The notes below the pieces were generated by a model that saw only the letters and a list, made by a program, of their open reading frames with translations, ran no database searches and was not told the DNA's origin. 64,000 nucleotides of DNA, taken from positions 1-64,000 of the forward strand of contig CANQRH010000004.1 of the NCBI GenBank assembly GCA_947626225.1, written 5' to 3'. Every line of letters begins with the position of its first letter. The first letter of the stretch is position 1. Below, piece after piece: positions 21,317 to 55,386 of this stretch. This DNA is from Candidatus Gastranaerophilales bacterium (lineage in GTDB: Bacteria; Cyanobacteriota; Vampirovibrionia; Gastranaerophilales; Gastranaerophilaceae). The position numbers and the translations under genes were made by a program.

Positions 21317-21811
21317 ATGTCTGAATGCAGAAGTTTCCCTTATGTTATATCGGATAATTCGGAAATATTAATTCTGGGTTCAATGCCAGGTATAAAATCT
21401 CTTGAAATGCAGCAGTATTATGCGCACCCGCAAAACCGATTTTGGAAGGTTATGGGACATCTTTGCAAAAATAAAAGTTTGCATACGCTTGATTATGAAA
21501 CGCGTCTGAAAACATTGACAAATAACGGTTTTGCACTTTGGGATGTTCTGAAATACTGCAAAAGAGAAGGAAGCCTCGACACTTCCATAAAAAACGAAAA
21601 ACCTAATGATATTGATAAACTTTTAAAACAGTATCCTAAAATAAAAAGAATTGTTTTGAACGGTAATAAAGCGTTTATGTCGTTTAAGAAATATTTTCCG
21701 AAGATTTATTCAACCTACGAGTGTTTTATATTGCCATCTACCAGTCCTGCAAATGCAAGGTTTACAATAACGCAATTGCTGGAGCAATGGGAAAAAATTT
21801 GTTTAGCTTGA
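21317..21811 (+). CDS. hypoxanthine/uracil-DNA glycosylase (UDG family 6, HDG)
   Basis: Removes deaminated bases, chiefly hypoxanthine in characterised family-6 enzymes. The 164-residue protein shows LILGSMPGIKSLEMQQYYA (about 16-34) with the family motif LGSMPG, HPQNRFWKVMG just after, and the C-terminal catalytic-loop motif LPSTSPANARF. It follows accC by one base, so its expression probably depends on the fatty-acid operon. A second, unrelated glycosylase lies at 58.4 kb. Confidence 0.88.
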   Translation: MSECRSFPYVISDNSEILILGSMPGIKSLEMQQYYAHPQNRFWKVMGHLCKNKSLHTLDYETRLKTLTNNGFALWDVLKYCKREGSLDTSIKNEKPNDIDKLLKQYPKIKRIVLNGNKAFMSFKKYFPKIYSTYECFILPSTSPANARFTITQLLEQWEKICLA

Positions 21812-21835
21812 AAAATTAAAAATATAGTTTATAAT
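21808..21835 (+). promoter_or_regulatory. promoter of the G-tract prepilin gene
   Basis: TTGAAA (21808-21813), a 16-bp spacer and TATAAT (21830-21835), overlapping the end of the glycosylase gene. The leader is about 25 nt. Confidence 0.6.
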
Positions 21836-21866
21836 AGAGGAGTAATTTATTAAGAAAGGAAGCGTT

Positions 21867-22581
21867 ATGAAAAAATCAGAGATTGGCAAGCTTTATGGGG
21901 GGGGGGCATAGTAACCATCCTTCCTTAATTTCAAGATTCAAACCGGGTTTCACTTTAGCGGAAACCCTAATCACTTTAAGCATAATCGGGGTTGTTGCGG
22001 CACTGACTATGCCTGTTATGGTTAATAAATATCATAAATCTGTTGCCGAAACAAGAATTACTAAATTTTACAGTATTATGAACAATGCTATAAGAATGGC
22101 AGAAATTGATTACGGTCCGCAAGATACTTGGACGGATTATTACGAAAACAGTGAATTTGATGACGATCACAATACATTATATGAAAAAGGAGAAAAATAT
22201 GATGCTCATATAAACAAATACTTTGCACCATATTTGAAAATAGTCGGTTCGGAAGAAATTAGAAATGTTGGGACTCCTCAAAAAGTATATTATTTAAGTG
22301 ACGGTACTGCATTTAGTTTTAATTTGCATGAAAACAGAGAAATTAATTTTTTCCCGTTTGGTAATCCAAAAAAATGTTTGGCATCTGCTAAACGGTCGCG
22401 TTGTAGTTTTTGTTTTGCTTTCTTACCGACAGGAGGTCTGCTTGAATATAAATACAATTTCAGTAACGGTATGCAGCCTGCTTTACTCATGTGGGACGGG
22501 AAAGAAGAAAATCTGCCATGTTTAAAAAAAGCACAATTTAACGGGTGGAAATTTCCTGATGATTGCAATCCATGGAAATAA
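21867..22581 (+). CDS. type IV pilin-like prepilin, apparently out of frame at a G10 tract (phase-variable candidate)
   Basis: The mature part has the prepilin cleavage and helix motif PGFTLAETLITLSIIGVV, then a globular domain with Cys residues. It closely resembles the prepilin at 54.7 kb (FYSxMNxAxxxxExDxGPQDTW in both). The best start is the ATG at 21867, preceded by AAAGGAAG, reading MKKSEIGKLYGG. With the ten G present (21897-21906) this frame meets TAG at 21909. With nine (or twelve) G it reads straight into HSNHPSLISRFKPGFTLAE. The in-frame ATG at 21895 and TTG at 21883 have no ribosome site. As sequenced the gene is probably off or poorly expressed. A homopolymer sequencing error is the alternative. 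Confidence 0.8.
21897..21906 (+). repeat. homopolymeric G10 tract within a 5' coding region
   Basis: Ten consecutive G in an otherwise AT-rich genome, located ten codons after a well-placed start codon. Slipped-strand mispairing would switch the downstream prepilin frame. Confidence 0.9.
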
Positions 22582-22610
22582 AAAAGGCGGGATTGAAATC
22601 CCGCCTTTTT
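22581..22610. terminator. bidirectional rho-independent terminator
   Basis: A perfect 13-bp stem (AAAAAGGCGGGAT / ATCCCGCCTTTTT) with a TGAA loop. It has T runs in both directions, between the convergent prepilin and nifJ genes. Confidence 0.92.
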
Positions 22611-54672: not shown

Positions 54673-55386
54673 ATGAAAAAAGGGTTCACATTGGCGGAAG
54701 TTTTAATTACACTCGGAATAATCGGGGTTGTTGCAGTTCTTACCATTCCGCCTCTTGTTCAAAATCACCGAAAAACAGTAGCCGAAACAAGATTAAAACG
54801 TTTCTACAGTATGATAAATCAAGCCGTACAGTTATCCGAATTGGATCATGGCCCGCAGGATACGTGGAGTTATAATTTAGATGCGATTAAAGATGAAGAC
54901 GGCAATAATGTATATGATGCAGAGAGAATGGCAGATAAGTTTGATGAGTATCTGGCACCGTATATGAAAATTATAAAAAAAGATGAATTAGAAGTGCCGC
55001 GAGAAATGGGAGATGATACTTTGGTATATTATCTTGCCGATGGCAGTTCTATTTTAGTAGGCAAAGCACAGAACAGAGAGCTTGTCTATATAACGGAAAA
55101 TCCGCAAAAATGTTTAAAAAAGCGACAAAGTTACGGCACTTGTTTATTTATGTTTTCATTTATACCCGATACAGGAAACTTACACTTCGGTGATACTTAT
55201 AAGCATAATGTTTCTAACGGTGTGCAGCCTTTTTTGTTTACCTGGGACGGTAATGATGAAAGCCTTTGGACTGATAAAACCTACGGCTGTAATAACGGCG
55301 GTGCGGGACAACAGGGACTTTTCTGTACGGAAATTATAAGACGAAACGGCTGGAAGATACCCGATAATTATCCGTATAAGTTTTAA
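54673..55386 (+). CDS. type IV pilin-like prepilin
   Basis: A 237-residue prepilin. The prepilin-peptidase site and helix are MKKGFTLAEVLITLGIIGVV (1-20), with the conserved Glu at +5 after the Gly. The globular domain has paired Cys residues (CLKKRQSYGTCL and a C-terminal pair) and ends in a WKIPDNYP motif. It is a paralogue of the G-tract prepilin at 21.9 kb. AAGGAGCAAAG precedes the ATG. The protein is probably assembled into a pilus, pseudopilus or competence-like fibre; no assembly genes are nearby. Confidence 0.93.
   Translation: MKKGFTLAEVLITLGIIGVVAVLTIPPLVQNHRKTVAETRLKRFYSMINQAVQLSELDHGPQDTWSYNLDAIKDEDGNNVYDAERMADKFDEYLAPYMKIIKKDELEVPREMGDDTLVYYLADGSSILVGKAQNRELVYITENPQKCLKKRQSYGTCLFMFSFIPDTGNLHFGDTYKHNVSNGVQPFLFTWDGNDESLWTDKTYGCNNGGAGQQGLFCTEIIRRNGWKIPDNYPYKF

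Follow-up and report, generated by a model that had tools for sequence, protein, structure and literature searches.

A G10 tract in a prepilin leader as a putative phase-variation switch in Gastranaerophilales

Why would a type IV prepilin gene carry ten consecutive Gs between its start codon and its prepilin cleavage motif, at a length that puts the two out of frame? We addressed this question for a gene in the first 64,000 nucleotides of a contig (CANQRH010000004.1, assembly GCA_947626225.1) from a Candidatus Gastranaerophilales bacterium; this whole stretch is referred to here as the window. The locus contains the following features.

21808-21835, forward strand: putative sigma-70-type promoter, TTGAAA-16 nt-TATAAT, from a consensus scan (11/12 matches)
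21855-21862, forward strand: Shine-Dalgarno-like AAAGGAAG, read directly in the sequence
21867-21896, forward strand: ATG (21867-21869) and the codons up to the tenth (MKKSEIGKLY), the 5′ half of the prepilin leader
21895-21897, forward strand: alternative ATG overlapping the tract, in the prepilin frame at G10, with no evident Shine-Dalgarno sequence
21897-21906, forward strand: G10 homopolymer, the proposed switch; the ON state requires 9 or 12 Gs
21907-21948, forward strand: 3′ half of the leader (HSNHPSLISRFKPG), with removal by prepilin peptidase predicted between G and F from the G|FTLAE motif
21909-21911, forward strand: TAG stop, in frame with the ATG at 21867 when the tract is G10
21949-22581, forward strand: mature pilin-like protein, 210 aa plus stop, with a hydrophobic N-helix and a DUF6613 head
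22581-22610, forward strand: intrinsic-terminator-like hairpin

The original prediction held that the ten-G run shifts the frame of the ATG at 21867 into the TAG at 21909, that losing one G or gaining two restores the prepilin frame, and that gaining one G gives an early stop. The tract is followed by CATAG, with the TAG starting two bases past it, and the coordinates and frame of that claim are exact. Translating the 5′ end with 7-13 Gs bears out the rest: the prepilin (237 or 238 aa) is reached only with 9 and 12 Gs, and tracts of 7, 8, 10, 11 or 13 Gs terminate after 13-20 aa. It was also correct to call such a run improbable by chance. In the window, with a G+C content of ~38%, only 0.04 G-runs of at least 9 are expected, and the 1.59 Mb genome holds 27 G or C runs of this length against ~1.6 expected from the run statistics of the window. 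The ribosome site ahead of the ATG was found where it had been claimed. The "good promoter", in contrast, stands only in part: it agrees with the consensus at 11 of 12 positions, yet promoter-like matches in this region are no commoner than in shuffled sequence. It starts at 21808, just 5′ of the end of the upstream uracil-DNA-glycosylase-like gene (21811). With its own promoter-like site and a terminator-like hairpin after its stop, the pilin gene appears, from these predicted signals, to be a single unit.

The tract might nevertheless be irrelevant if, at G10, translation began constitutively at the ATG at 21895, yielding a pilin with an 18-residue leader. With ten Gs this ATG shares the prepilin frame, and the short open reading frame that overlaps it ends ~14 nt further downstream. 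However, it lacks a Shine-Dalgarno sequence at the usual spacing, and few sister loci have a start codon so near the tract. We consider constitutive internal initiation very improbable as a full account of the locus; some product from this ATG at G10 could still arise, and this counts against a strict switch.

The encoded protein has the characteristics of a type IV pilin. The N_methyl family (PF07963) scores over its cut-off, the G|FxxxE cleavage motif and hydrophobic N-helix are present, and the head matches DUF6613 (PF20318, E 3.9e-10). An AlphaFold2 model (pLDDT 93.9) has a 53-residue N-helix (3-55) and a beta-strand head. Structural and profile comparisons say less about the head: the top VIA-align rows are all weak (PAK pilin, Z 3.6; FimA, Z 3.5; Xcp pseudopilus, Z 3.0), a Foldseek search with the pilin head returned nothing significant, and a profile match to PilA (E 5.8e-05) is restricted to the N-helix. 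The window's genome also encodes a prepilin peptidase (Peptidase_A24, G000:C2:197532-197924; 33.4 bits, over cut-off). Because the Gly-rich stretch encoded by the tract lies in the leader that this type of enzyme would remove, a change of three Gs in either direction should leave the mature pilin the same.

We think it highly likely that the type IV prepilin gene at 21867-22581 is phase-variable, switched by slipped-strand mispairing and belonging to a family-wide system that is mostly OFF, although this reading is drawn from assembled sequence alone. Mispairing during replication would alter how many Gs separate the start codon from the cleavage site; with 10 Gs translation would end at TAG 21909, and with 9 or 12 the full prepilin would be made. 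Up to an estimated ~140 prepilin genes per genome would carry such tracts, the prevailing length leaving most of them out of frame, and from this large, mostly silent stock of surface-fibre genes a few would be turned on at random.

The original prediction had argued that a run between start and prepilin helix is where a switch would sit. Eight other prepilin genes of the window's genome carry a tract at the same position, with differing lengths and frames, in support of phase variation. We inspected all 27 tracts of this genome; in nine cases the run separates a start codon from the prepilin F[TS]LAE motif. Six of these nine read as G and three as C, and in the assembly three are ON and six OFF. 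Tract-bearing genes make up about a fifth of the at least 43 prepilin genes recognised from 51 motif matches. The window itself holds another member of this prepilin family (54673-55386, forward strand; ~46% identical to the first) with the tract-free leader MKKG|FTLAE, and because it has no tract it is presumably not switched in this way. Other tracts lie in genes for a GT9 glycosyltransferase, a capsular-synthesis type protein and a hexapeptide transferase (surface-glycan-type), in radical SAM genes and in unassigned genes. Several of these glycan-type, radical SAM and unassigned genes (L007, L009, L011, L015 and L016) are in mixed ON and OFF states in the assembly and are candidates for phase-variable envelope modification. 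Two tracts have unusual surroundings. At L006 (1752-1762; G000:C2:147251-147261) a G11 run lies on the opposite strand ~100 nt above the leader tract of the closest paralog (82% identical), where it could act on transcription. At L004 (1593-1607), close to where G000 contig C1 ends, a G15 run sits beside sequence of unusually high G+C (50% for the locus) that contains long spurious open reading frames, and this region looks like foreign or misassembled sequence.

To see how widely the arrangement occurs, we searched for a run of at least nine Gs no more than ~64 nt upstream of a prepilin motif, with the same pattern reversed as a control. The pattern was found in 26 of 33 genus genomes and 73 of 241 order genomes, nearly all within one family; the reversed pattern gave zero matches in both sets. 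A homolog scan of genome contigs returned one relative, a rabbit-gut Candidatus Gastranaerophilales MAG whose pilin is 54% identical to that of the window, and no second genome of the window species. One relative, G028, has 176 tracts. On its contig C1 (397 kb, taken whole), 36 of 45 tracts of length nine or more, about four fifths, lie in prepilin leaders, and extrapolating from this contig we estimate ~140 tract-bearing prepilin genes. The other G028 windows were picked around known tracts, and our prepilin caller relies on a Shine-Dalgarno-like string plus an [FY]xLxE motif. All genomes are assemblies, many probably metagenome-assembled, and ON and OFF describe the assembled consensus, not cells. 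Several G002 and G004 contigs start at a tract or very close to one (for example G002 C48:42, C50:6 and C55:38; G004 C16:1 and C52:1), which would follow if mixed lengths or repeats interrupted the assembly.

This distribution bears on the main alternative that had been offered, a one-off sequencing or assembly indel in a gene whose true tract is fixed at nine Gs and which is always on. Homopolymers are error-prone, we had no raw reads, and in some relatives contigs stop at a tract or close to one. However, a single error does not account for similar tracts in the prepilin leaders of 73 of 241 genomes, with an OFF-frame stop shortly downstream, or for the differences in length between alleles described below; we give this alternative very little credence.

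Slipped-strand mispairing further predicts that length differs between otherwise similar DNA molecules, and several comparisons agree with this. In G058, leaders nearly identical on both flanks carry 10, 12 and 13 Gs. One pair of orthologs, whose proteins are 99% identical, has G11 in G028, where the gene is ON, and G10 in G004, where it is OFF. Among G028 prepilins, 61 with length 10 are OFF, while three with 11 and one with 8 are ON, and in G002, the source of the nearest homolog found beyond the window's genome, lengths range from 9 to 15. Furthermore, dN/dS is 0.15 across eight ortholog pairs that are OFF in both genomes, which indicates that OFF genes are under purifying selection and are not decaying. 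Taken together, these observations fit reversible slippage better than pseudogenes, one isolated indel or a programmed frameshift that is fixed, and the proposal of phase variation by slippage is thus supported by comparison of relatives, without reads from the window locus. A separate pattern concerns two locus pairs of G028 and G004 (L147/L114 and L150/L116), which are near-identical to the right of the tract and differ in the leader directly to its left, as though the genes had swapped their 5′ segments at this point.

Are the tracts in random frames? Of the 181 prepilin tracts in ten genome samples, 18 are ON, where random frames would give one third (p 3e-13, which is only a guide because paralogs are not independent); this recount required starts at least 12 nt upstream of the tract. 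At length 10, in G028, G004 and G001 combined, one of 110 prepilin tracts is ON (two with starts at least 12 nt upstream), and 101 of the 110 need a +1 shift. This shared offset is not simply copied, because the start-to-tract phase takes all three values. In the same three genomes most G-reading genes meet their OFF-frame stop 4-8 nt past the tract. Length itself can be just as narrow, with exactly 10 in 169 of 176 tracts in G028 and 73 of 77 in G006, as opposed to 12 of 74 in G002. The window's genome, with length 10 in 14 of 27 tracts, shows the mixed pattern, not the strict one. Campylobacter jejuni offers a precedent for narrow lengths: in its G tracts insertions are favoured at G8 and deletions from G11 upwards, which keeps lengths mainly at G9-G10 (PMC8355987). 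Such slippage biases offer a reason for the narrow lengths in Gastranaerophilales.

The same regularities raise the possibility that the gene does not change at all and that RNA polymerase or the ribosome shifts on G10, giving some full-length prepilin without any DNA switching. The identical +1 requirement despite all three start-to-tract phases, the near-constant length in G028 and the early stops are all what such programmed slippage would look like. Against it, DNA lengths of 8-15 do exist, and the 8- and 11-G prepilins of G028 are exactly those in frame; the nearly identical G058 leaders vary in length; and the window gene requires -1 or +2, not +1. Across members the required shift is +1, -1 or 0, and it is fixed in some species only. 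In addition, C10-reading genes have the same offset, and the placement of the Gs on the GC-rich strand is left unexplained. We therefore consider programmed slippage improbable.

That strand rule is part of a wider polarity. In sampled G028 sequence, 79 of 79 tracts read C-G(n)-C[AG], and these flanks occur in at least 90% of tracts in G004 and G001; by comparison, only 15% of G5 runs in G028 have the right flank C[AG]. G-reading genes, C-reading genes and non-prepilin tracts all have these flanks. The window's genome has mere traces of the motif. In all 20 sampled windows of G001, which cover eight contigs, the Gs of the tract fall on whichever strand is locally richer in G, and along G028 contig C1 the orientation of the G strand is constant. 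In G004 the orientation is constant per window, and the skew is weaker and does not agree with orientation everywhere. Positive GC skew usually marks the leading strand; if it does so here, the tracts are polar relative to replication, not transcription. Codon usage alone is insufficient to produce the flanks, as genes on the other strand and non-prepilin tracts have them and G5 runs do not. In two C-reading G028 loci (L052 and L055), a TCTACGCACGTA-like string lies to the left of the G run and is common to oppositely oriented genes. The dull reading of the strand rule is orientation-dependent tract stability; the interesting one is that C-G10-CR might be a dedicated element or binding site. 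An extension of slipped-strand switching along these lines is that the polar C-G10-CR, placed in the disposable leader of more than 100 prepilin genes, with an equilibrium length that is out of frame and a stop directly behind, constitutes a dedicated default-OFF switch that lets each cell make a few random pilins and is maintained by a process beyond plain slippage. We regard this as possible but doubtful.

Cells probably keep their surface-fibre genes mostly silent with a random few ON, as far as consensus assemblies can indicate. What the sequences show directly is the tract with its frames and stops, its recurrence, the differing lengths of near-identical alleles and the selection acting on OFF genes; length variation in living populations, display of pilins and assembly of fibres by ON cells, and a benefit through cell-surface diversity or evasion are all inferred. 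The phase-variation reading also has clear limits at the window locus, where there are no reads or second isolate, no length change has been seen at 21897-21906, and there is no evidence of transcription or protein. The near-uniform length of 10 in several relatives is tighter than freely slipping loci would lead one to expect. A MAG consensus also hides population mixtures or may misreport them.

These results have implications beyond one gene. Uncultured gut bacteria related to cyanobacteria look to possess a very large repertoire of homopolymer tracts, and a modal tract length that is out of frame suggests a simple route by which most of ~100 pilins would stay silent while one or a few are displayed stochastically. 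Automatic annotation may label such genes truncated or place their starts too late. A 2025 review raises the question of why genomes rich in phase-variable loci seem to be restricted to pathogens, and whether this reflects database bias (PMC11868660). Within the literature searched, no paper linked phase variation to Gastranaerophilales or phase-variable loci to Vampirovibrionia; one of the few papers on pili in these bacteria describes type IV pilus genes and makes no reference to phase variation in its pilus passages.

Known systems share parts of this arrangement. In Neisseria, phase variation of pilC through a G tract near its 5′ end governs whether type IV pili are displayed. Its product is not a pilin; it is an adhesin associated with the pilus, carries a Sec signal and is encoded by one or two genes; in contrast, the Gastranaerophilales tract lies in a cleaved prepilin leader and serves a large pilin repertoire. 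The Neisseria pilE/pilS system resembles ours in having many pilin variants per genome with few expressed, and involves a guanine-quartet element (PMC3547852). There, a single pilE locus is expressed and receives sequence from silent copies by conversion, whereas here each copy would be silenced by its frame; the tract-bearing copies in G028 keep their own ribosome site and ATG, unlike the variant copies of a gene-conversion system of this type. There is also a likeness to the poly-G contingency genes of C. jejuni, with intragenic hypermutable G tracts, mainly G9-G10, that switch frame at many loci with surface functions (PMC8355987). C. jejuni has 18-39 phase-variable poly-G genes, and two Campylobacter species have more than 50 (PMC8355987); unlike these, G028 has its far more numerous tracts mostly on one prepilin family. 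We found no description of a default-OFF frame bias or a polar C-G10-CR motif for the C. jejuni system. What is new in comparison with these systems is the very large repertoire, the default-OFF bias, the early stop after the tract, the location of the tract inside a cleaved leader, and the unexplained C-G10-CR motif.
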